This document shows positions 1-32,005 of a stretch of DNA of 64,000 nt, one piece after another. A program made the position numbers and the translations under genes. The DNA comes from Allobosea sp. Leaf344 (GTDB lineage Bacteria > Pseudomonadota > Alphaproteobacteria > Rhizobiales > Beijerinckiaceae): NCBI RefSeq assembly GCF_001426225.1, contig NZ_LMRT01000001.1:338648-402647 (forward strand). The letters run 5' to 3'. The notes under the pieces are model-generated. The model saw only the letters and a list, made by a program, of their open reading frames with translations, was not told the DNA's origin and did not search any database. Each line of letters opens with the position of its first letter. The first letter of the stretch is position 1.

Positions 1-513
1 GCGCAGCAGATGGCGCTTGCCGCTGGCTCGATGAGCCAAGGCGAAGGATGCGTGGCCGAGCGCGAGCGCGAGCAGGGCGAAGCCCAGCCAATAGTGCAGG
101 AGATCGGCGGGTGCCTCGAGCCAGGCGATCCGCTCGGATCGCCCCGGCATGACGCGCAGGCCGAAGACCGAGAAAGGCTTGCCCGAGCCGAACTGGCGCA
201 GCAGGGCGATCGCGGGAATGAAGAGCATCAGCCCGTAGAGCAGGGCGTGGCCGAAGCCCGCGGCGCGGTCCGCCAGCCCGTGGCGTATCGGTCGGCGCTC
301 GCGGTTGATGAGCGCCCAGCCGGCCCGAAGGATCACCAGGACGAACAGCACCGCACCGAGCTCCAGATGCCGGCCGCCGACGAAGCGCGTCACGGCCGTG
401 TCGCCGATGCCGACATAGAGCAGCGCGCCGGCAAATTGCCAGAAGAGCAGCAGCGCCATCAGCCAATGCAGGAAGCGGCTCACCAGGCCGTAGGATTCGG
501 CCGTATCGCGCAA
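1..513 (-). CDS. Cytochrome b561 family protein (3' end outside window)
   Basis: Reading the minus strand from a TTG at 511-513 gives 171 residues that continue to the left edge, so only the C-terminal tip is missing (family members are about 180 residues). It begins RDTAESYGLVSRFLHWLMA, typical of the family, and shows about four hydrophobic helices with histidines near residues 16 and 50 and in the last two helices, expected to ligate b-type haem. These inner-membrane proteins pass electrons from quinol. The TTG start is chosen because a purine-rich GGAGGAGAGGG tract lies about 12 bases upstream and no ATG or GTG fits the conserved N-terminus. It is divergent from the glycosyltransferase cluster. 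Confidence 0.85.
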   Translation of the reverse strand, partial: MRDTAESYGLVSRFLHWLMALLLFWQFAGALLYVGIGDTAVTRFVGGRHLELGAVLFVLVILRAGWALINRERRPIRHGLADRAAGFGHALLYGLMLFIPAIALLRQFGSGKPFSVFGLRVMPGRSERIAWLEAPADLLHYWLGFALLALALGHASFALAHRASGKRHLLR

Positions 514-800
514 TCGTGAAATCGGCCCTCTCCTCCGGTGTTCATCCGGCGCTCTCGCCGCTTTTTCAGGTTGTTCCCGAATATAGCGCGCGATCGGCCC
601 GCGATCAGGTCTTCATGTGCTCCGTCGCGACCAACCCACCAGCTGGAACATCCAGGGGCGGAGGCTGTTGCAATTTCCGTCCGCCATGGCGGGCATTTGT
701 CACCCACTTCGCCAACGCGATGTCGGTCGGGCGGGTCGAGCCGGTGTCGAGCGCGCCGGATCGCCGGTCGCAAGACACGCCTGCACGATCGGAGCGACCG
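514..800. other. Divergent intergenic region before the glycosyltransferase cluster
   Basis: This 287-base spacer separates the divergent cytochrome b561 gene from the glycosyltransferase operon and should hold both promoters. I see a GGAGGAG ribosome-binding tract for the leftward gene and a GGAG at 791-794 for the rightward gene, but no convincing -35/-10 pair and no protein I would call. Confidence 0.4.
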
Positions 801-1880
801 TTGCGTATTGGTATCATCGCTCATCTCAAACATGCCATCCGCGAGCCCTTCGCCGGCGGGCTCGAAATGCACACCGCGCAATTGCAGGCGCTGCTGCGCA
901 GCCGCGGCCATGAGGTCACGCTGTTCGCCTCGCTGCGCTCCGAGCCGGAAGAGCATGTCGAGGCGATCTGCGAGGAGACCTCGCTCGCCGATGTCGGCTG
1001 CGACGAAGCGCCGGACAAGGCCTTCTTCCTCGAGCACCACGCCTATCTCTCGCTGATGAACGGGCTGCGGCACCGCGACTTCGACATCATCCACAATAAC
1101 TCGCTGCATTACCTGCCGGTCGCGATGGCGGACGTCCTGCCGATGCCGATGGTGACGACGCTGCATACCCCGCCCTTCGCCTGGCTCGAAAGCGGGGTGC
1201 GGCTGTGCAAGGCGCCGCATGCGAGCTTCGTGGCGGTCTCGGACTCGATCAGGCGGTCCTGGGGGCGGATCGCACCGATCGAGCATGTCGTGATGAACGG
1301 CATCGATCTCGACCGCTTCGCCTTCGCGGCCGCCCCGGCGCCGGAGCCCTATCTCGTCTGGTACGGGCGCATCGTCCCCGAAAAGGGTCTGCACCATGCG
1401 ATCGCGGCGGCGGCGCTGATCGGGGCGGCGCTGCATATCGCCGGGCCGATCTCCGACAGGGATTATTTCGACCAGATGATCGCGCCGCGGCTGAGCGGCA
1501 GGATCCGCTATCTCGGCCATCTCTCGCATGGCGAGCTCGCCAGGGTCGTCGCCGGAGCGCGCGCCTTCCTGTGCACGCCCTGCTGGGAGGAGCCCTATGG
1601 GCTCGTCGTCGCCGAGGCGCTGGCCTGCGGCGTGCCGGTCGCGGCCTTCGCGCGCGGCGCCATCCCGGAACTGCTGACGGAGCGCTGCGGGGTCCTGGCG
1701 GCACCCGACGATCCGGCCTCGCTCGCCAGCGCGGCACTCGCCGCGCAGGCGCTCGACCGTCGCGATTGCCGGGCGCATGCGGCAAGCTTCTGCGATGCCG
1801 AGCGGATGATCGACGAGTACGAGACGCTCTATGCCGAGATGATCGCGGGGACGAAGCGCCCGGCGGCGCAGGCGGCCTGA
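801..1880 (+). CDS. Glycosyltransferase family 4 (GT-B fold)
   Basis: A 359-residue retaining GT-B transferase. The N-terminus reads RIGIIAHLKH, followed by the acceptor-side GGLEMHT segment near residues 16-22. The C-terminal nucleotide-sugar half has GRIVPEKGLHHAI and the family E-x7-E motif in EEPYGLVVAEALACG near residues 263-271. I chose the TTG at 801 because GGAG sits six bases before it and it puts the conserved strand right at the N-terminus; an in-frame ATG at 720 exists without a ribosome-binding site. It is the first of seven tightly packed genes; the stop lies one base before the next ATG. Donor and acceptor cannot be read from sequence. Confidence 0.85.
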   Translation: MRIGIIAHLKHAIREPFAGGLEMHTAQLQALLRSRGHEVTLFASLRSEPEEHVEAICEETSLADVGCDEAPDKAFFLEHHAYLSLMNGLRHRDFDIIHNNSLHYLPVAMADVLPMPMVTTLHTPPFAWLESGVRLCKAPHASFVAVSDSIRRSWGRIAPIEHVVMNGIDLDRFAFAAAPAPEPYLVWYGRIVPEKGLHHAIAAAALIGAALHIAGPISDRDYFDQMIAPRLSGRIRYLGHLSHGELARVVAGARAFLCTPCWEEPYGLVVAEALACGVPVAAFARGAIPELLTERCGVLAAPDDPASLASAALAAQALDRRDCRAHAASFCDAERMIDEYETLYAEMIAGTKRPAAQAA

Positions 1881-1881
1881 G

Positions 1882-2853
1882 ATGCGCGAGCTGCGCGAGG
1901 ATGGCGGGTCGGCCGCGAGCCGCGTCGCGCGCCGCGCCGTCTGCGTCTGCGTGCCGGCGCGCGACGAGGAGGAGCGGTTGCCGCGCCTGCTCGCGGCGCT
2001 CGCGGCGCAGAGCCTGCCCGGTTCGATCAAGGTCGCGATCTGCCTCAACAATACGAGCGATCGCTCGGCGGAGGTCGTCGAAGAAGCGCAGAGGCGCCAT
2101 CGGGGTCGGCTCGACATGAGATGCGAGATCCGCGCCTTCCCGGCCGCGCTCGCCCATGCGGGATCGGCGCGCGCGGCTGCCATGTCGCTGGGTCTCGAGG
2201 GTCTGGCGCCGAATGCCGTGCTCGTCACGACCGATGCCGATACGCGGCCTCCGCCCGGCTGGCTCGCGGCCAATCTCGCAGCCATCCGCACTGGCGACGA
2301 GATCGTCGGCGGCCGGCTCGTCCTGGACGAGGAGGAAGCGCTTTCGCCCGAGCTGCTCGAGGGGCGACGCCTCTGGGACCGCTATTGGGACGCGGTACGG
2401 CGCATCGAGGACGAGGTCGATCCGGACCCGTCCGACCCCCCTCCCCGCCATGGCGACCATACCGGCGCGAGCCTGGCGATGAGCGTCGATCTTTATCTGA
2501 GGGCCGGCGGGGTACCGCTTCTGCCGACAGGCGAGGACCGCGCGCTGGTCGCTGCGGCGCAGGCCGCCGGCGGGCGGCTGATGCACCCGGCCTCGGTCTG
2601 GACCAGGGTCTCCGCCCGCCGCGATGGCCGCGCCGAAGGCGGCATGGCCGAGATGATGCGGGCGATGGAAGAGACGGCGCGGCGCGGCGAGCGGTTGACC
2701 GCGCCCGCGCTGAGTCATTGGCGCGAGCGCGCCTCCTGGCGGCGGGCGATGCGCGAGCGGCGGCTGAGCGTCGCCGAGCTGATCGCCGCGGAGAACGCGC
2801 TGCCGCCGATGCCGCATGATGCCGATCTCGCGACGATCGGTGCGGCGCCGTGA
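1882..2853 (+). CDS. Glycosyltransferase family 2 (GT-A fold)
   Basis: A 323-residue protein with the GT2 opening VCVPARDEEERLPRLLAAL near residues 14-33 and a DAD metal/nucleotide motif in TTDADTRPPPGW near residue 117. A histidine-rich stretch (PRHGDHTGASLAM) and GEDRALV follow in the acceptor half. There is no transmembrane segment, so it probably works in the cytosol. It starts one base after the previous stop, and its stop overlaps the next start (GTGA), so translation is likely coupled. The sugar is unknown. Confidence 0.82.
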   Translation: MRELREDGGSAASRVARRAVCVCVPARDEEERLPRLLAALAAQSLPGSIKVAICLNNTSDRSAEVVEEAQRRHRGRLDMRCEIRAFPAALAHAGSARAAAMSLGLEGLAPNAVLVTTDADTRPPPGWLAANLAAIRTGDEIVGGRLVLDEEEALSPELLEGRRLWDRYWDAVRRIEDEVDPDPSDPPPRHGDHTGASLAMSVDLYLRAGGVPLLPTGEDRALVAAAQAAGGRLMHPASVWTRVSARRDGRAEGGMAEMMRAMEETARRGERLTAPALSHWRERASWRRAMRERRLSVAELIAAENALPPMPHDADLATIGAAP

Positions 2854-3905
2854 CCGGGCCGATCGGCTATTACGTGCATCATCACGGCGACGGCCACCGG
2901 CAGCGGGCGCTCGCCATCGCCGCGGCGGCGCCGGGCCTCTTCACCCTGATCGGCACCGGGCTGAAGGGCCGCACAGGCAGCGTGTCCTGCCTCGACCTGC
3001 CCGACGACCGGCCGAGCGGCGCATCGGGATTCGACGGCCGCGACGACGCCGAGGACCGGCCGCAGGCGCTGCATTACGCGCCGCTCGGCCATGACGGCGT
3101 GCGGGCGCGGATCGCGGCGCTGACGGGCTGGATCGAAACCACCCGGCCGGCGCTGATGGTCGTCGACGTCTCGGTCGAGATCGCCATGCTCGCGCGGCTG
3201 GCGGCGACGCCGACGGTCTATGTCAGGCTCGCCGGACGCCGCGACGATCCCGCGCATGGCGATGCGTTTCGCGGCGCGCGAGCTTTGCTGGCGCCTTTCC
3301 ATCGCGATCTCGACGATCCCGAAACGGCGGAATGGATCCGCGGCAAGACCCTCTATGCGCCGGGGCTCGCGGCACGGGCCGCAGAGACCTCTCCGAAGCG
3401 GCGCGATCGCGTGCTGTTCGTCCAGGGCCGCGGCGGTGGCGAAGGCAGCGGCGAGCGGCTGGCGGAAGCCGCGAGGGCGACGCCCGCGCTGGATTGGCGC
3501 GCGATCGGCAAGGTCGCGCCGGCGCGCTCCGTTCCGCCGAACCTCACTCTGGTCGGCTGGACCGACGCGCCCGCGGCCGAGATCGCGGCCGCGGGCGTGG
3601 TGGTGGGCGCCGCCGGCGACGGGATGGTCAATGCCGTGCTGGCCGCCGGCAAACCCTTCATCTGCCTGCCCGAGCCGCGGCCATTCGGAGAACAGGAGGC
3701 CAAGGCGGCACGGTTGCAGGCGCTCGGCGCCGCGATCGTAGCCCGAGACTGGCCAGAGCCCGCCGCCTGGCCGGCGCTGATCGCACAGGCCGTCGCTCTC
3801 GACCCCGGCGCGCAGCGTCGGCTGCATTGCCCGGACGGCGCCCGGCGCACCGCCGAGGCGCTGATCACCCTCGCCCGAAAAGGATCCGTCGATGCTTCAC
3901 CCTGA
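2850..3905 (+). CDS. MurG-like glycosyltransferase (GT28 C-terminal fold)
   Basis: A 351-residue GT-B protein starting with GTG at 2850. The N-terminus carries a histidine-rich loop (YYVHHHGDGHRQRALAIA), where MurG-type enzymes bind their acceptor. The C-terminus has GAAGDGMVNAVLAAGKPF near residue 253 followed by a PFGEQEAKAARL segment, the usual nucleotide-diphospho-sugar site of this fold. It overlaps the previous gene by four bases and the next by fourteen. MurG relatives use UDP-GlcNAc; that this one does is only an inference, although it would fit the deacetylase further along the operon. Confidence 0.75.
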   Translation: MTGPIGYYVHHHGDGHRQRALAIAAAAPGLFTLIGTGLKGRTGSVSCLDLPDDRPSGASGFDGRDDAEDRPQALHYAPLGHDGVRARIAALTGWIETTRPALMVVDVSVEIAMLARLAATPTVYVRLAGRRDDPAHGDAFRGARALLAPFHRDLDDPETAEWIRGKTLYAPGLAARAAETSPKRRDRVLFVQGRGGGEGSGERLAEAARATPALDWRAIGKVAPARSVPPNLTLVGWTDAPAAEIAAAGVVVGAAGDGMVNAVLAAGKPFICLPEPRPFGEQEAKAARLQALGAAIVARDWPEPAAWPALIAQAVALDPGAQRRLHCPDGARRTAEALITLARKGSVDASP

Positions 3906-5031
3906 GAGGACGACCCCGCAGGCGAGCGAGGCGGCAGCCGACATCCTCCTGCCGCTGCGGGCCATTTTCGACCGGCTGGTCGAATCCGGGGCGCGCTACG
4001 ACGCGGCGCCGCTCTTCCCGATCGATAGCGTCGAGGCGCTGCGGGCGATCGGCGTCCACCGCCTCTTCGCCCCGCCCGAATCCGGCGGCCGGCACTTCGC
4101 CGATGCGCGCGCCGAGAACGCGGCGCTGCTCGACCTGCTGCGCCTCGTCGGCCGGGCCGATCTCAGCCTTGGGCGGATCGTCGAAGGGCACGTCAACGCG
4201 CTGAAACTCTTCGCCTGGTATGGCAGCGCCGGCCAAAAGGCCGAGCTCGCGGCGCGGCTGCGCGCCGGCGAGTTCTTCGGCGTCTGGGCGACCGAGCCGC
4301 CGCCGGGCGTGGCGCTGCATCGCGATGGCGATGGATGGCGGCTTTCCGGTGGTAAGATCTTCGCGACCGGCGCCGGCGGGTTGGCGCGCGCCATCGTCAC
4401 CGCCCGCGACCAGGATGGCGAGACGCAGCTGGTCGTGGTGCCGGCCGATCTCGCCGGCCGGGTCGACCTGTCGCGCTGGCGGGTGCGCGGAATGCGGGCG
4501 ACCGGCAGCGGCAGCTATGATCTCGACGGCCTGCGGCCGGCAGCGACCGATCTGCTCGGCGCACCGGGCGATTACGGCCGCGAGCCGCGCTTTACCGCCG
4601 GGGCCTGGCGTTTCCTGGCGGTGCAGCTCGGCGGCATCGAGGCGCTGCTGGCCGAAACGCGGGCGGCGATGTCCGAGGCCGCGCGCGGCGATCCGCTGCA
4701 GCGCGCGAAATTCGGGGAGGCGGTCGCCGCCGCCCGCACGGCCTATCTATGGGTGCGCGAGGCGGCGCAGCGGGCGGCGGATGAGGCGCCCGGCGCCGAG
4801 GATTTCGTGCGCATGGCGCGCGGGGTGGTCGAGCGCGCCGGGCTCGACATGATCGAGCTCGCCGCGCGCATCGTCGGCACCCGCAGCGCCTTCGACGGCG
4901 AGCGCATCGACAAGATCAGCCGCGACCTCAGCCTCTACCTGCGACAGGCCGGTCCCGATCATGCCCGCGACCGGGCGGCGGCGGCCTGGCTCGAGACCGA
5001 TCTCTGGGGCAACGGAGACGGGCTATGGTGA
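3892..5031 (+). CDS. Acyl-CoA dehydrogenase homologue with altered active-site loop
   Basis: A 379-residue protein with the overall acyl-CoA dehydrogenase plan: an all-helical N-terminal half, a middle beta domain around FGVWATEPPPGVALHRDGDGWRLSGGKIFATGAG near residues 130-165, and a helical C-terminal half. Where normal members have T-E-x-x-A-G-S-D after the FAD-contacting strand, this one reads ATEPPPGVALH, so substrate and flavin contacts should differ. It overlaps both neighbours in an operon otherwise made of sugar enzymes. It may oxidise an unusual acyl or sugar-linked substrate, or be a non-classical flavoenzyme. Confidence 0.7.
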   Translation: MLHPERTTPQASEAAADILLPLRAIFDRLVESGARYDAAPLFPIDSVEALRAIGVHRLFAPPESGGRHFADARAENAALLDLLRLVGRADLSLGRIVEGHVNALKLFAWYGSAGQKAELAARLRAGEFFGVWATEPPPGVALHRDGDGWRLSGGKIFATGAGGLARAIVTARDQDGETQLVVVPADLAGRVDLSRWRVRGMRATGSGSYDLDGLRPAATDLLGAPGDYGREPRFTAGAWRFLAVQLGGIEALLAETRAAMSEAARGDPLQRAKFGEAVAAARTAYLWVREAAQRAADEAPGAEDFVRMARGVVERAGLDMIELAARIVGTRSAFDGERIDKISRDLSLYLRQAGPDHARDRAAAAWLETDLWGNGDGLW

Positions 5032-5738
5032 TGCGGGCGCTGGCGGCGCGCCGGCTCGACACCAGCGCGATGGCGCAGGCGCGCTGGCTGGTGCTGGCAC
5101 CCCATGCCGATGACGAGACGCTGGGCTGCGGCGCGCTGATCGCCGAGGTGGCGCGCCGCGGCAGGCTGGCCGGCGTCGCGATTCTCACCGACGGTGCCGG
5201 CTCGCATGCGCATGCGGACGCTGTCGCGCGGGCGCGGCTGATCGCGGCGCGGCGGCGCGAGGCCGAGCTGGCTGTCCGGCGGCTGGCCGGCGCCTCCGCC
5301 CCGCCGCCGCTGTTTCTCGGCTGGCCGGATGCGCGCCCCTTCGCGCCGGGCTCGGCCGGCTTCGAAGCCTCGCGGCGTCGGCTCGGCGCGCTTTGCCGCC
5401 GGCTCGGCGTCGATGCGCTGGCGGTCACCGCGCGCCATGAGCCGCATTGCGACCATGAGGCGGCCTATGAGCTGGCGCAGGCGGTGTCGAAGAGCGCGAT
5501 CCGTCCCGTGGCGGTCGTCGAATACATCGTCTGGGCCCAGGACTCGCCGGGCAACGGCTATCGCGCGCTGCGGACCGCGCCGATGCCGCTCGGGGCCCGC
5601 AACCGCGCGCTCGCCGCGCATCGCAGCCAGATCACCCCGCTGTTCGGCGACGGCTTCCGGCTCTCGCCGGAGAAAATGCGGATGCCGGCCTATGATTTGC
5701 TCTTCGAGAGGATCAGCCGCGATGCGCCGCACCGATAG
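5025..5738 (+). CDS. PIG-L family deacetylase
   Basis: A 237-residue zinc-dependent deacetylase of the PIG-L/LmbE family. The metal-binding motif is PHADDETLGCG near residues 26-36 and a second histidine cluster, RHEPHCDHEAA, lies near residue 140, matching the family's HxDD and HxxH ligands. Family members remove acetyl groups from N-acetylglucosamine carried on lipids, inositol or other aglycones. The start overlaps the previous stop by seven bases. In this operon it would expose a free amine on an amino sugar, which the following methyltransferase could modify. Confidence 0.85.
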   Translation: MVMRALAARRLDTSAMAQARWLVLAPHADDETLGCGALIAEVARRGRLAGVAILTDGAGSHAHADAVARARLIAARRREAELAVRRLAGASAPPPLFLGWPDARPFAPGSAGFEASRRRLGALCRRLGVDALAVTARHEPHCDHEAAYELAQAVSKSAIRPVAVVEYIVWAQDSPGNGYRALRTAPMPLGARNRALAAHRSQITPLFGDGFRLSPEKMRMPAYDLLFERISRDAPHR

Positions 5739-6309
5739 CCTGCCGGCCACCTATTTCGAGGAGATGTTCGCCGGCGATCCCGATCCCTGGCGCTTCGAGA
5801 CCAGCGCCTATGAGCAGGCGAAATACGCCCACAACCTGTCGGTCCTCGGCCCATCCTATCGCCGGGGCTTCGAGATCGGCTGCGCCAATGGCGTCCTCAC
5901 CGCGCAGCTCTCCGCGCGCTGCCGAACGCTGCTTTCCATCGACGTCAGCGAGACGGCGCTGGCGCGGGCGCGCGAGCGTTGCGCCGGCGCGGCGGGGGTG
6001 AGCTTCGCCCGGATGAGTTTCCCGCAGCAGGCGCCCGAGACCGGCGGTTTCGATCTCCTCGTGCTGTCGGAGGTCGCCTATTACTGGAGCGATGCCGATC
6101 TCGACAAAGCGGCGGGCAAGATCGCCGAATTGCTGGCGCCTGGGGGCGAGATGATCCTGGTCCATTGGACCGGCGAAACCGATTATCCGCAGAGCGGCGA
6201 CGGGGCGGTTTCGCGGCTGGAACGCGCTTTGGCCGGCATCGTCGCGGTGCGGCGCAGCGAGCGGACGAAGCATTACCGGCTCGACCTCTGGGCGCGGCGG
6301 GCGCCATGA
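5722..6309 (+). CDS. NodS-like SAM-dependent methyltransferase
   Basis: A 195-residue class I methyltransferase. The N-terminal YFEEMFAGDPDPWRFETSAYEQAKYA pattern (residues about 9-34), the SAM loop FEIGCANGVLTAQL (about 49-62) and FDLLVLSEVAYYW match the NodS family, whose characterised members N-methylate deacetylated chitooligosaccharides in Nod factor synthesis. It overlaps the end of the PIG-L gene by 17 bases and the next glycosyltransferase by an ATGA. Immediately following a deacetylase, an N-methyl (amino-sugar) role is plausible but unproven; nodABC are absent. Confidence 0.8.
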   Translation: MRRTDSLPATYFEEMFAGDPDPWRFETSAYEQAKYAHNLSVLGPSYRRGFEIGCANGVLTAQLSARCRTLLSIDVSETALARARERCAGAAGVSFARMSFPQQAPETGGFDLLVLSEVAYYWSDADLDKAAGKIAELLAPGGEMILVHWTGETDYPQSGDGAVSRLERALAGIVAVRRSERTKHYRLDLWARRAP

Positions 6310-7151
6310 TCAGCGTGCTGACGCTGGTCAAGAACCGCGAGACGCATCTGCAGCGCCTCGCCGAGGGCCTAGCCCGGAGCGCGGTGACACCGGCCGAACT
6401 GGTGATCGTCGATATGAGCGACATCCCCGTCGCGGCGCCCGAAGCCGGCTGCCCGGTCAGGCTGGTCCGGCTCGAGACGGCGGAGCTGCCGCTGGCGCGG
6501 GCCCGAAACCTCGCCGCCTCCCATGCGACAGCCGAGCGCCTGCTCTTCCTTGACGTCGACTGCATCCCCTCGCGCGCGCTCGTCGGCGCGATGGACGCGG
6601 CATTGGCGCGCGAGGACCGGCTGATCTGTGCCGAGGTGCTCTATCTCGGGCCGGACGATCTCGCGGAACCCTGGACGGAGGACGGGCTGGTCGCGTGCGG
6701 GCAGCGGCATCCGGTGCGGAATTTCCCCGCGGAGGGTCTGAGGCCCGAGGAGAATGCCGGCCTGTTCTGGTCGCTCGCCTTCGGCATCAGGCGCGCCAGC
6801 TTCACCCGGCTCGGCGGGTTCGACGAGGCCTTCAGCGGCTATGGGGCCGAGGACACCGATCTCGGCTTCGCCGCCCGCGAGTCCGGCATCGGCCTGTCCT
6901 TCCTCGGCGGCTGCCCGGTCTTCCACCAATATCACGGCGTCATCGACCCGCCGCTCAACCATTTCAGCGACATCGTGGAGAATGCGAAGCGGTTCCATCG
7001 CAAATGGCGGCGCTGGCCGATGGAGGGCTGGCTCGCGGCCTTCCGCACCCTCGGCCTCGTGCATTGGTCGGACGAGCAGCTGGACATCATCCGCCGACCG
7101 ACCGCGACCGAGATCGCCAGGGCGCAGCAGCCGTCATCGGTGACGTTTTAG
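6306..7151 (+). CDS. Glycosyltransferase family 2 with galactosyltransferase-type C-terminus
   Basis: A 281-residue GT-A protein starting MISVLTLVKNRETHL. It has a DVDC metal motif near residue 84 and a C-terminal GGFDEAFSGYGAEDTDLGFAAR segment near residue 170-190, the W/Y-G-x-E-D pattern of the galactosyltransferase (GT7C-like) catalytic base region. The ATG overlaps the upstream stop (ATGA). It is the last gene of the seven-gene operon and is followed by a strong GC hairpin. Confidence 0.82.
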   Translation: MISVLTLVKNRETHLQRLAEGLARSAVTPAELVIVDMSDIPVAAPEAGCPVRLVRLETAELPLARARNLAASHATAERLLFLDVDCIPSRALVGAMDAALAREDRLICAEVLYLGPDDLAEPWTEDGLVACGQRHPVRNFPAEGLRPEENAGLFWSLAFGIRRASFTRLGGFDEAFSGYGAEDTDLGFAARESGIGLSFLGGCPVFHQYHGVIDPPLNHFSDIVENAKRFHRKWRRWPMEGWLAAFRTLGLVHWSDEQLDIIRRPTATEIARAQQPSSVTF

Positions 7152-7170
7152 GAGTTTGGGCCGCGTGACG

Positions 7171-7195
7171 GCCGCCCGCCGCCGTGGCGGGCGGC
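7171..7195 (+). terminator. GC hairpin after the glycosyltransferase operon
   Basis: GCCGCCCGCC and GGCGGGCGGC form a perfect 10-bp stem around a five-base loop, 20 bases past the last stop. There is no T-run after it, so it could equally be an mRNA 3' stabilising structure. Confidence 0.5.
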
Positions 7196-7314
7196 AGTTC
7201 GGACAAGCCATCTTTTCGCGTTGGGTCCGAACATCAGCGCGGGCGAAGATGGATGATGCCTGGCACCGATACCGGCGCTATCGGGGCGGTTGCGGATGTC
7301 TTGGAATGCAGGAG

Positions 7315-7390
7315 TGGTGCCGCTTGAGGGATTCGAACCCCCGACCCCCTCATTACGAATGAGGTGCTCTACCAGCTGAGCTAAAGCGGC
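7315..7390 (-). tRNA. tRNA-Thr (anticodon CGT)
   Basis: On the minus strand GCCGCTT...AAGCGGC forms the acceptor stem. The D arm reads GCTCAGCTGGTAGAGC, the anticodon stem CCTCA/TGAGG encloses loop TTCGTAA with anticodon CGT, and the T arm is GGGGG-TTCGAAT-CCCTC. The discriminator base is A and a 3' CCA is encoded (7315-7317). It decodes ACG threonine codons, frequent in this GC-rich genome. No attachment-site duplication or integrase is visible beside it. Confidence 0.95.
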
Positions 7391-7625
7391 GACGCGGGGA
7401 GCCTGTACCAGCCCGGTGGATTCTTGGCAAGGCGCAGCGGTCGCCATACCCCCGCCCGCGGCAGCTGATGATGCAGGACCCGCTGGACGGGGCGCGGCGC
7501 AGGTGCCGACCTGTCCGGCGGGATCGACGGGCTTCGCCACCGATCGCCCTCCCCTCGCCAGCGGGCTCGGCCGCCGACGCGCCAGCAGCTCCGTCGCCGG
7601 CGCATCCCCCGCTCTTCGGCCCGCT

Positions 7626-8576
7626 TCAGTCCTTGCGCAGCTTTTCCGTCTCCGGCTTTTCCTGGCCCAGCGCCACGATGCCCCTGCGGATGGCGCGGGT
7701 GCGGGTGAAGTGCCGGTGCAGCGTCTCGCCATCGCCGAAGCGGATGGCGCGGGTCAAGACGGAGAGATCCTCGCTGAAGCGGCCGAGCATCTCCAGCACC
7801 GCCTCCTTGTTGTGCAGGAAGACGTCGCGCCACATCGTCGGGTCCGAGGCCGCGATGCGGGTGAAGTCGCGAAACCCGCCCGCGGAGAATTTGATCACCT
7901 CCGATTGCGTCACCGCCGCCAGATCCTCGGCCGTGCCGACGATGTTGTAGGCGATGAGATGCGGCAGATGGCTGGTGACCGCCAGCACGAGATCATGATG
8001 CTGCGGCGTCATGATCTCGACCAGCGCGCCCATGCCTTCCCAGAATTGCCGGGTGGCGGCGATGGCGGCCGCAGCCGTGCCCTCCGGCGGGGTCAGAATG
8101 CACCAGCGGTTGAGGAAGAGGCTGGCGAAACCCGCATCGGGGCCGGAGTTCTCGGTGCCGGCGACGGGATGGGCCGGGACGAAGGCGACGCCCGAAGGCA
8201 GATGCGGCTGCACCGCCTCGACCACCGAATTCTTGACCGAGCCGACGTCGGACAGGATGGCGCCCGGCTTCAGGGCACCGGCGATCTCCTCCGCCACCGC
8301 GCCGCAGGCCCCGACCGGCACGCAGAGGATGACGAGATCGGCGTCGGCGGCGGCTTCGCGGGCGGTCGCGACGACGCTGTCGCCGAGGCCGAGCTCGCGG
8401 GCGCGGGCGCAGACATCCGGGTCGCGGTCGGCCAGGACGATCCGGCCGGCGAGGTTCATCTGCCGCGCGGCATGGGCGATCGAGGAGCCGATCAGCCCGA
8501 TGCCGATGATGGCGACGCTGGCGAAGACCGGCTGCTCCCGGCGCGGCGCAAAGCTCTCGACCTGTGCGGGGCTCAT
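7626..8576 (-). CDS. tyrA: Prephenate/arogenate dehydrogenase
   Basis: A 316-residue TyrA. The NAD(P)-binding loop [11 protein letters not shown] lies near residues 24-34, and the substrate domain has the [10 protein letters not shown] motif and [16 protein letters not shown] with the active-site histidines. It oxidatively decarboxylates prephenate (or arogenate) in tyrosine synthesis. The ATG overlaps the stop of the upstream aminotransferase (ATGA), so the two are translationally coupled, consistent with consecutive steps of one pathway. No ACT regulatory domain is visible at the C-terminus. Confidence 0.93.
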
Positions 8577-9682
8577 GCCGCGCCCGCCAGGAATTCGGCG
8601 AGCGCCGCCACCACGAGGCGGTTGGCCTCTTCCGAGCCGATGGTCATTCGCAGCGCGTCGGGCAGGCCATAGGCCGCGACGGACCGCAGGATCAGCCCGC
8701 GGCCGGTGAGGAAGGCGTCGGCCTCCTTGGCCGTGCGGCCCTTCGTCGTCGGGAAGTGGATCAGCACGAAATTGCCGACCGAGGGGGTGACGGTGAGGCC
8801 GAGCTTTTCCAGTTCGGCCGTGGTCCAGGCCAGCCACCGGTCGTTATGCGCGATGGCGGCGGCGACATGCGCCTCGTCGGCGATCGCCACGGCGCCGGCC
8901 TCGATGGCGGCGCCATTGACGTTGAACGGGCCCCGGATGCGGTTCAGCGCATCGACCAGATGGGCCGGGCCGTAGAGCCAGCCGAGGCGGAGATTGGCGA
9001 GCCCGTGGATCTTCGAGAAGGTGCGCGTCATCACCACGTTCTCGCTTTCGGCGACGAGCTCCAGCCCGGCGGCGTAGTCGTTGCGGCGGACATATTCGGC
9101 ATAGGCCGCATCCAGCACCAGCAGCACATGCGGCGGCAGGCCGGCATGCAGGCGCTTGACCTCGTCGAAGGGCAGATAGGTGCCGGTCGGATTATTGGGG
9201 TTGGCGAGGAAGACGATCTTTGTCGCCGGGGTCACGGCGGCCAGAATGGCGTCGACATCGGCGGTGAGATCCCGCTCCTTGACGACGACGGGGGTGCCGG
9301 AGGCGGCCAGGATCGCGATGCGATAGACGAGGAAGCCGTGCTCCGTGAAGATGCCCTCGTCCCCTTGGCCGAGATAGGCCTTGGTCAGCATCTGCAGCAA
9401 TTCGTCGGAGCCGGTGCCGCAGATGATGCGGGCGGGGTCGAGACCATAGCGCGCGGCGATCGCCTCGCGCAGGCGGGTGGCCGAGCCGTCGGGATAGAGT
9501 TCGAGCTTGCCGGCCAGCGCCTGGTAAGCCTCGATCGCCAGCGGGCTCGCGCCGAGCGGGGTCTCGTTGGAGGACAGCTTGTGCAGTTTCACCCCCGCCG
9601 GCGCTGCGGATTTCCCCGGGACATAGGCCTCGATGTCGAGAATGCCGGGGCGGGGCACGGGGCGGGAGGCTGCGCTGGTCAT
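8573..9682 (-). CDS. hisC: Histidinol-phosphate / aromatic aminotransferase
   Basis: A 369-residue class I/II aminotransferase. It contains [12 protein letters not shown] near residue 35, [10 protein letters not shown] and the PLP-lysine motif [15 protein letters not shown] near residue 220, all typical of HisC. I use the ATG at 9682 because homologues begin close to the [14 protein letters not shown] segment; an earlier in-frame start at 9742 would overlap the preceding gene. Sandwiched between chorismate mutase and tyrA, it probably serves aromatic amino-acid transamination as well as, or instead of, histidine synthesis. Confidence 0.9.
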
Positions 9683-9704
9683 GGGAGACGGCTTTCGGGG
9701 AGGA

Positions 9705-10559
9705 TCAGGAGCGGGCTGATTTGACGGAGAAGCGCGCGGCATGGCTGCCGATTTCGGCGAAATCGACCAGGCCCGCCGGCTCCAACGCGGTGCGGATCAC
9801 GTTCTGGTCGACCTCGCCGGAGGCGGCGACCAGGAGCGAGAGATGCGAGCCGTCGGCGGCGCTGGCGGAGACTTCGGCGAGATGGCGGCCGAGCTCGACC
9901 CGCAGCGCCTCCGACCAGCGCTCGACCCGCGCGGCATAGAGCACGATCTCGCGGACGGCCGCATCCGCCAGCGGCTTGGCGATGCAATAGACAGGGGTGC
10001 CGGCGGGATGGTCGGGCCGCTCGATGAAGGGCAGCCGCGCGATGATCTTGGGCTGGTCGGCGCCGATCAGATCGCGCCACCAGATGCCGGCGCTGGCGCC
10101 CTGGTCCATCCGGAAGATGCCGAGATCGCCGGCCGAGCGCGCGACGGCGGCGATCACCGCCCGCGCATCCTCATGAGTGACGAAGGGCACGGTGAACCCG
10201 AAATGGAAGCGGGCGGAATCGCGCATCGCCGGATCGCCGCCGGAGACGTCGGCATGGACGGCGTAATTGGCCTGGACGTAGGTGAAGGTGGCGATGATGA
10301 TCCGCCAGATGCCCTCGATCGTGTCGAGCGGCAGCAGCCCCTTGTGACGCAGCGCGAGGCGCTTCATCATGTCGGCCTCGCGGCCGGGCCTGAAGGCGGA
10401 GCCCGAGACCTGCGTCTTCTTCACCGCTATCAGCGTCTCGATGATGCTGGAGCGCTCCATCAGCAGCGCATGCATCTCGCTGTCGATGCGATCGATCTCG
10501 CTGCGCAGATCGGCGAGCGTCGTCGGTGCGGCCTGGGGCGTCGGGGCGATTTCGGTCAT
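9705..10559 (-). CDS. AroQ-type chorismate mutase with long C-terminal extension
   Basis: A 284-residue protein. Residues about 15-100 form an AroQ helical domain ([20 protein letters not shown], then [19 protein letters not shown]), carrying the expected Arg/Lys chorismate contacts. The remaining 180 residues resemble a worn prephenate dehydratase-like or binding-protein fold, but lack clear catalytic motifs; the true pheA is at 61393-62247. It makes prephenate for tyrA/hisC next door. The ATG at 10559 has GAGG 13 bases upstream; a TTG four codons earlier is also in frame. Confidence 0.8.
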
Positions 10560-30502: not shown

Positions 30503-32005
30503 TTATTCAGCCGCCTGCTGGGGCGTGTTCGGCGTCACCGAGATCGCCGGGGATTCCGTGCCCTTCGCCTTGGCCAGCGCCTTGCGGACGCCATTGCCGT
30601 AATCGGGATGGACCTGGTCGAACAAGGCGAGCTGGCGCTCCTCGATCTCGCGCGGAATCCCGCCCATCGCCGCGGCGATATTGGCGAAGAGGCGCTCCTT
30701 CTGGCCGGCATCGAACAGGTTGAACAGGGCGCGCGGCTGGCTGAAATCATCATTGCCGATGCGGTGGTTGTAACGGGCCGCATCGCCGGAGATGCGCAGC
30801 GGCGGCTCCTTGGCCTGGGGCTGCTCGACCGGACCGCCGAAGGAGTTCGGCTCGTAATAGACGTCCGGATTGCCGGTGCGCAGCCCGCCATAGGTATTCA
30901 TCTGCCCATCGCGATGATAATGCGCGACCGGCGATTTCGGCTGGTTGACCGGGATCATCTCGTAATGCGTGCCGAGCCGGTGGCGATGCGCGTCGGCATA
31001 GGAGAAGATGCGGGCCTGCAGCATCTTGTCCGGCGAGAAGCCGATGCCCGGCACGATGTTGGACGGGGAATAGGCGGCGTTCTCGATCTCGGCGAAGTAG
31101 TTGTCGGCGTTGCGGTTGAGCTCGACGATCCCGACATCGATGAGCGGGTAGTCGCCATGCGGCCAGACCTTGGTCAGGTCGAACGGGTTGTAGGGCGTCT
31201 TCTCCGCATCGAGCTCGGGCATGATCTGCACCTGCATCTTCCAGCGCGGATAGTCGCCGTTCTCGATCGCGTTGTAGAGGTCCTCCTGCGTCGTCTCGCG
31301 GCTCCGGCCGACGACGGTGGCCGCCTCCTCATTGGTCCAGTGCCTGTGGCCCTGCATGGTCTTGAAGTGGAACTTCACCCAATAGCGCTCGCCGGCATCG
31401 TTCCACAGCGAGAAAGTGTGCGAACCATAGCCGTTGATATGCCTGACATCGGTCGGCAGACCGCGATCGGACATCAGGATCGTGACCTGATGCAGGCTCT
31501 CCGGGCTGAGCGACCAGAAATCCCACATCGCCGTCGGGGACCGCAGATTGGTGCGGGGATGGCGCTTCTGGGTGTGGATGAAATCCGGGAACTTGATCGG
31601 GTCGCGCACGAAGAAGACCGGCGTATTGTTGCCGACCAGATCCCAATTGCCCTCTTCCGTGTAGAACTTCAGCGAGAAGCCGCGCACGTCGCGCTCGGCA
31701 TCGGCGGCACCGGCCTCGCCCGCCACCGTCGAGAACCGCGCCACCATCGGCGTCACCGTGCCGGGCTGCAGCACCTTGGCCTTGGTGTATTTCGAGATGT
31801 CGCCGGTGATGGTCAGGCGGCCATGCGCGCCCCAGCCCTTGGCGTGGACGGCGCGCTCGGGGATGCGCTCGCGGTTCTGGTGCGCGAGCTTCTCGAGCAG
31901 CTGATAATCCTGCAGCAGGACCGGGCCGCGCTCCCCGGCCGTCAGCGAGTTCTGATTGTCGGGAATCGGCGCGCCGGCCGTCGTGGTCATGATCTTGTGA
32001 GACAT
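30503..32005 (-). CDS. katA: Monofunctional haem catalase
   Basis: A 500-residue clade-type catalase. The catalytic His is residue 54 in [12 protein letters not shown], the active-site Asn is in [13 protein letters not shown] near 127, and the haem-ligand Tyr is in [15 protein letters not shown] near 337. The length fits small-subunit catalases. It dismutates hydrogen peroxide in the cytosol. GAGGGG lies seven bases before the ATG. It is divergent from oxyR, 122 bases away, so OxyR control is very likely. Confidence 0.95.

Follow-up and report, generated by a model that had tools for sequence, protein, structure and literature searches.

Seven coupled genes on the forward strand, here named A to G, fill positions 801–7151 of a 64,000-nucleotide stretch of the Allobosea sp. 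Leaf344 genome (the whole stretch is referred to below as the window; contig C1, 338648–402647, of a 4.35-Mb assembly), and we tentatively propose that the product of this operon is a small, soluble glycoside that is associated with stress and contains a modified amino sugar. The genes encode four glycosyltransferases (A, B, C and G), a flavoenzyme (D), a PIG-L deacetylase (E) and a NodS-like S-adenosylmethionine (SAM) methyltransferase (F). In the route that we infer, A would act like glucosylsucrose synthase and put a sugar on a small soluble acceptor, and B, C and G would extend or decorate the product, one of them adding an N-acetylamino sugar. Subsequently, E would take off the acetyl group, F would methylate the freed amine, and D, being flavin monooxygenase-like, would add oxygen, possibly at nitrogen, to an intermediate or to the product. 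Deacetylation followed by N-methylation is plausible chemistry, and the catalase and trehalose genes that neighbour the operon in relatives suggest a stress protectant that has not been described before.

All seven reading frames are present and closely packed, with a 1-bp gap between A and B and overlaps of 4 bp (B/C), 14 bp (C/D), 7 bp (D/E), 17 bp (E/F) and 4 bp (F/G), as a preliminary description of this DNA had proposed. The TTG start of A at position 801 is backed by relatives, the aligned start being TTG in eight and ATG in two of ten upstream regions. Moreover, no polymerase, flippase or export family was detected in Pfam and NCBIfam scans of the seven operon proteins, which agrees with the same description.

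The possibility that this gene order is unique to the one genome was refuted. In a set of 61 genomes (i.e., the own genome, 36 of the same genus and 24 of the same order), five of the 36 congeners had a close relative of D, and a further genome (G053) had a more distant one. In each of the five with a close D, the complete order A to G is preserved, with 57–79% identity to the window genes in four of them and 50–68% in the fifth (G018). A scan of named genomes with D yielded 129 relatives, and among the best 80 of these 129 loci, A to G stood in order on one strand in 53 (Hyphomicrobiales, Sphingomonadales and Caulobacterales) and D-E-F stood in order in 78. The remaining 27 loci include cut contigs and loci without a detected C or G; part of them have D-E-F alone or together with B, which is often on the opposite strand, and one (L094) has C, B and A inverted. 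Since the loci were picked by D alone, the presence of E and F beside it was not built into the sample, and the complete order in these 53 loci and in five of five congeners shows that the arrangement is not due to chance. D itself is rare in even samples, occurring in five of 384 further genomes of the class (E≤1e-30) and in 16 of 397 further genomes of the phylum (E≤1e-25). A smaller core (D-E-F, usually with a GT2 glycosyltransferase) extends to Acetobacteraceae, Rhodobacterales, Deinococcus and Nostoc. Because the seven-gene order is kept across at least three alphaproteobacterial orders and the core across phyla, it can be argued that the product is useful. Each of the enzyme families is already known; the cluster itself is, as far as searched, apparently undescribed, and neither the cluster nor its core was found described in open-licence PMC papers, of which coverage was partial.

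Several features of the relatives lie beyond the window's own sequence, namely catalase genes at the operon, a trehalose operon before the core, an exporter-like transporter gene, and the smaller core itself. Of the 80 loci, 38 have a catalase gene no more than 9 kb from D, at several different positions: KatE lies immediately upstream of A in 18, between A and B in seven, downstream of the core in six, downstream of G in two and elsewhere in one, while a Mn-catalase lies just upstream of A in three and elsewhere in one. Among the Bosea-lineage loci, KatE stands between A and B in five of six, with a Mn-catalase upstream in the sixth. Given that the own genome holds one KatE-family catalase in 4.35 Mb, we estimate that chance proximity would yield about one locus in 80 or fewer, a figure that, with related loci, does not amount to a formal test. 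In Novosphingobium P6W, the neighbourhood includes a catalase, a Crp/Fnr regulator, Ku and Hsp20. In L140, which we take to be a Pseudomonas, the core follows TreZ, MalQ, TreY and GlgX (treZ-malQ-treY-glgX), and L141 has a matching layout as judged from printed N termini, without a model scan and with E beyond the printed list. In Sphingomonas melonis, these four genes depend on EcfG according to the excerpted text of PMC6599016, which also gives the EcfG motif as GGAAC-N17-20-GTT and lists EcfG-dependent glycosyltransferase genes including #3505–3509. This motif was found before the first gene in the window (position 645) and in six of six Bosea-lineage loci. No site was found in a sigma-70-type scan of positions 500–7600. 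A strict form, GGAAC-N15-18-CGTT, was found before a catalase in L049, L068 and L100. A strict site also lies about 50 bp before a left-flank gene of the own genome.

With regard to the acceptor, A matched 7fg9 (TeGSS, glucosylsucrose synthase) with an E value of 8.4e-45 over residues 1–351, and tetrahydrobiopterin glucosyltransferase with one of 5.6e-34. As these best solved relatives act on soluble acceptors, a small soluble glycoside is favoured, and of the two products previously left side by side (soluble or lipid-linked) the lipid-linked one keeps the lower weight. In the excerpted text of PMC9909042, 7fg9 produces glucosylsucrose and its Tyr18 and Arg179 matter. A resembles TeGSS over its full length and keeps Arg179 (by hand count in the alignment, with the first aligned Met as residue 1), whereas the genomic contexts differ, TeGSS adjoining sucrose-phosphate synthase in that excerpt and A adjoining tailoring enzymes. 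For the other glycosyltransferases, B had one weak solved relative (8vxh, 0.0044), and no solved relative was found for C at 0.01 or for G at 0.001.

An operon for a glycolipid or lipid-linked glycan, in which A would act at the membrane like a PimA-type GT4 enzyme, and in which the head group would be lengthened by the other glycosyltransferases and tailored by E, F and D, seems unlikely. A does match the N-acetylglucosaminyl phosphatidylglycerol synthase model (59.7 bits, with a cut-off of 480) and PimA (8e-12), and E is in the same family as GlcNAc-PI deacetylase, but the matches of A to the soluble-acceptor enzymes above are far stronger, and lipid-carrier and flippase families are lacking among the seven proteins. 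Likewise, the exporter-like SbmA/BacA-like ATP-binding cassette (ABC) transporter gene that precedes A in five of the six Bosea-lineage loci (L044–L048) would suit a lipid-linked product, but it is not seen at the window's cluster and was undetected in non-Bosea loci, except for a 31% match in L094.

A set of four glycosyltransferases with several folds could also be expected of a locus for surface polysaccharide side branches (i.e., decoration of lipopolysaccharide or exopolysaccharide), and several of the models matched by operon proteins are exopolysaccharide enzymes, all of them below cut-off. This explanation is nevertheless improbable, given the absence of polymerase, flippase and export families noted above, the flanking genes (cytochrome b561, KaiC, tRNA-Thr and prephenate dehydrogenase) and a gene order that is stable over several orders.

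Public records label D an acyl-CoA dehydrogenase, and the preliminary description had likewise called it a homologue of these enzymes, but this label is misleading. By profile search, D matched DszC best (1.3e-15), followed by TdsC, monooxygenase 8cda and MsuC (7.1e-13), with the best dehydrogenase at 6.3e-8 and KijD3 (2.6e-7) behind that dehydrogenase, placing D closer to DszC-type than to dehydrogenase sequences. Of three Pfam acyl-CoA dehydrogenase domains, one reached its cut-off, and only marginally (23.0 vs. 22.4). Acyl-CoA dehydrogenases have a catalytic-site EGT motif near the C terminus, some true members placing the base elsewhere. EGT was missing in all 17 aligned D-family rows. Among 21 homologues from outside the family, 10 have it, and several of the remainder are truncated or belong to other types. 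Of the 17 D-family rows, 15 have an RDL..YLRQ stretch in common (L140 and L142 depart from it). An ordinary acyl-CoA dehydrogenase was ruled out by the profile ranking and the consistent absence of EGT. In a Foldseek search with a structural model of D (built from seven sequences; mean pLDDT 73.5, pTM 0.77), 5gj7, a putative acyl-CoA dehydrogenase, came first, followed by TdsC, a nitrososynthase and DszC, with a short-chain dehydrogenase at rank 23. Taken together, D resembles the group-D flavin monooxygenases (DszC, TdsC and MsuC, and the nitrososynthases ORF36, KijD3 and DnmZ), which provide its best profile and top fold matches and with which the lack of EGT in the D family accords; it differs from them in being about 20–24% identical, in its own RDL..YLRQ-like stretch, and in an operon without a reductase partner.

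Nitrososynthases oxygenate nitrogen on nucleotide amino sugars, and three of them (3mxl, KijD3 and DnmZ) are among the fold neighbours of D. Together with the patchy distribution of the cluster, this could point to a secondary metabolite of antibiotic-like or signalling type whose amino sugar is oxidised, comparable to nitro-sugar natural products. We give this explanation little credence, since KijD3 ranks after both DszC and the best dehydrogenase by profile, polyketide, peptide and deoxysugar genes are lacking among the seven, and catalase and trehalose genes are the neighbours in relatives.

The assignment of E is firmer, with a score of 65.2 bits against a Pfam gathering score of 28.2 for PIG-L, and its PHADDE and HCDH stretches are taken by us to be the PIG-L motifs. 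For F, the closest solved relative was 4isc (6.5e-20), with NodS (3ofj) at 2.2e-17. On the NodS model, F scored 80.7 bits against a curated cut-off of 300, and five genes in four of 297 genomes of the order scored 333–352 bits. In a midpoint-rooted F/NodS tree of 59 rows, NodS (four rows) and fusion proteins (five rows) made up one side and the other 50 rows the opposite side (96/88). All cluster F proteins (15 rows from seven-gene loci and 22 from core loci) fell on the side opposite NodS, and the 15 seven-gene rows formed one group (98/87) together with L175, whose neighbourhood was not read. F is therefore ruled out as a NodS by its score and separate clade. Of the family labels in the preliminary description, NodS-like and acyl-CoA dehydrogenase were thus too generous, and the others stand as stated. 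Within the tree, the F of Bosea AAP35 grouped (95/95) with Brevundimonas, Sphingomonas, Hyphomonas and Porphyrobacter, away from other Bosea. This grouping fits a single assembly of the seven-gene form followed by horizontal spread, for which B-D-E-F would be the older module that A, C and G joined in one lineage.

The Nod-factor logic previously seen in the operon holds as far as a deacetylase is paired with an N-methyltransferase, but homology with the Nod pathway is not supported. As in Nod-factor tailoring (NodC, NodB, NodS and NodA), a glycosyltransferase, a sugar deacetylase and an N-methyltransferase share one operon and F is a distant relative of NodS. In contrast, the deacetylase here is of the PIG-L and not the NodB type, no NodA-type acyltransferase is present among the seven, and the operon adds a flavoenzyme and three more glycosyltransferases. 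PF02474 (NodA) had no match in the own genome, nor in the control genomes. A similar comparison can be made with the fusion proteins (L159–L162 and L172; 880–1015 aa, with their type assigned by length and score), which are annotated as 'Trifunctional glycosyltransferase/class I SAM-dependent ...' and whose full name presumably adds a polysaccharide deacetylase. They too join a NodS-like methyltransferase to a glycosyltransferase, but they group with NodS and not with F; the frames with this methyltransferase domain are the nearest tree group to true NodS. The operon and its relatives also show that the pairing of a NodS-like methyltransferase with a sugar deacetylase is common outside symbiosis.

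A bacillithiol- or mycothiol-like redox cofactor of low molecular weight, which would share with the operon its first two steps (GT4, then PIG-L deacetylation), a tailored amine and the catalase context, is very unlikely, because the matches of E to BshB1 (its best NCBIfam model, 33.9 bits) and of A to the BshA and MshA models are all far below cut-off, a cysteine ligase (BshC/MshC) is lacking among the seven (the rest of the genome was not searched), the amine would be methylated and not acylated, and the operon adds further glycosyltransferases, a methyltransferase and a flavoenzyme.

A number of observations weigh against the stress-associated soluble glycoside that we propose. Firstly, by the same hand count as above, A has an alanine at the sucrose-adjacent Tyr18 of TeGSS. 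The fold search ranked dehydrogenases close behind monooxygenases, so that the fold alone is indecisive for D, and no flavin reductase family was found among the seven proteins by Pfam scan. Secondly, the window genome has neither KatE nor Mn-catalase at the cluster, its only KatE-family catalase (about 500 aa) lying 24 kb away at 30503–32005 on the reverse strand, and 42 of the 80 loci have no catalase within 9 kb. Finally, a general-stress promoter is only partly upheld by the motif searches: GGAAC-N17-20-GTT occurred before the first gene in seven of 59 loci, compared with nine of 59 on the opposite strand, and before D in one of 21 core-only loci, and the strict form was absent from the 350 bp before A in all loci with an A hit. 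Of the nine sites on the opposite strand, five precede KatE and may serve a divergent regulator gene. In addition, the terms 'acyl-CoA' and 'deacetylase' do not occur in the main text of PMC6599016, the study of EcfG in Sphingomonas.

The smaller core is also found on plasmids, with D present on 29 plasmid-collection records; no match to D was obtained among phage records. A Deinococcus gobiensis plasmid record carries D-E-F with a convergent GT2 gene, a Paracoccus plasmid record carries B-D-E-F, and a Nostoc plasmid carries D-E-F with B convergent. In D. radiodurans, D-E is accompanied by a nearby F, and no GT2 is among the genes listed for that stretch. The Methylobacterium plasmid FF17 has D with neither E nor F listed nearby. 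There is a slim chance that B-D-E-F is a widespread, hitherto unrecognised module for a new class of stress metabolite, i.e., a sugar-borne N-methyl hydroxylamine or nitrone that would arise by deacetylation (E), N-methylation (F) and flavin N-oxygenation (D) and would scavenge radicals alongside catalase and trehalose; its range would then span Deinococcus, Nostoc, Alphaproteobacteria and a probable Pseudomonas. As a single operon, the seven genes would offer a simple genetic handle on a metabolite of leaf, soil and water bacteria that is linked to catalase and trehalose genes.

In two Deinococcus loci (L134:7543–9882 and L135:7696–10044), D has an additional, fused N-terminal domain (about 400 residues) that has no match in Pfam and that we read as a GH1-type TIM barrel. 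Elsewhere, a B-D-F core has in its vicinity a gene for a sucrose-phosphate synthase-like protein (L144:3708–5843, reverse strand), as well as relatives of C and G.

Table 1. Features of the operon and its immediate surroundings (positions in the window).
Feature	Position	Strand	Description	Evidence or remark
Putative promoter motif	645..669	+	Possible general-stress (EcfG-type) motif, GGAAC-N17-GTT	156 bp 5′ of A
Gene A	801..1880	+	GT4 glycosyltransferase, glucosylsucrose synthase relative	Pfam PF00534/PF13439
Gene B	1882..2853	+	GT2 glycosyltransferase, belongs to the smaller core	PF00535, 7.9e-10
Gene C	2850..3905	+	GT28/MurG-like glycosyltransferase	PF04101, 1.2e-6
Gene D	3892..5031	+	Flavoenzyme of acyl-CoA dehydrogenase fold, nearest to group-D monooxygenases	Profile search, EGT absence
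Gene E	5025..5738	+	PIG-L (LmbE-type) deacetylase	PF02585, 1.1e-17; PHADDE and HCDH motifs in translation
Gene F	5722..6309	+	NodS-like SAM methyltransferase	PF05401, 1.3e-18 on longer frame
Gene G	6306..7151	+	GT2 glycosyltransferase with galactosyltransferase-type C-terminal motif	PF10111, PF00535, PF02709
tRNA-Thr (CGT)	7315..7390	−	Boundary just 3′ of the operon, outside the pathway	ARAGORN

The operon is flanked on the left, on the opposite strand, by genes for cytochrome b561, KaiC and a PAS/GAF histidine kinase, and on the right by tRNA-Thr followed by prephenate dehydrogenase. On the right flank, the prephenate dehydrogenase portion found a match in all 61 genus genomes searched, and tRNA-Thr lies close to it in many of them, not all. 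In eight congeners that were read, tRNA-Thr stands beside prephenate dehydrogenase with a different far side, where the 7.9–14.2 kb read held neither the cluster nor the left-flank genes in any; half of these eight congeners carry the cluster elsewhere. In congener L215, the DNA on the far side of the tRNA matches two other locations in the own genome. Our claim is that of a rearranged or acquired segment, which stops short of a proven island.

An interspersed repeat of about 80 bp, noticed via L215:1050–9000 (positions 1730–1810), has dozens of copies in the own genome (e.g., C12:305981–307146). A KaiC-like ATPase and a PAS/GAF histidine kinase lie beside the cluster in three Bosea-lineage genomes (L006, L044 and L049), in differing orientations; L006 includes the left flank of the window, its 6045–10552 (KaiC-like ATPase and kinase) corresponding to about −4603 to −96 of the window. 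Further left of the kinase in that locus (L006:1834–6024), small general-stress-like genes and a response regulator were labelled by eye.

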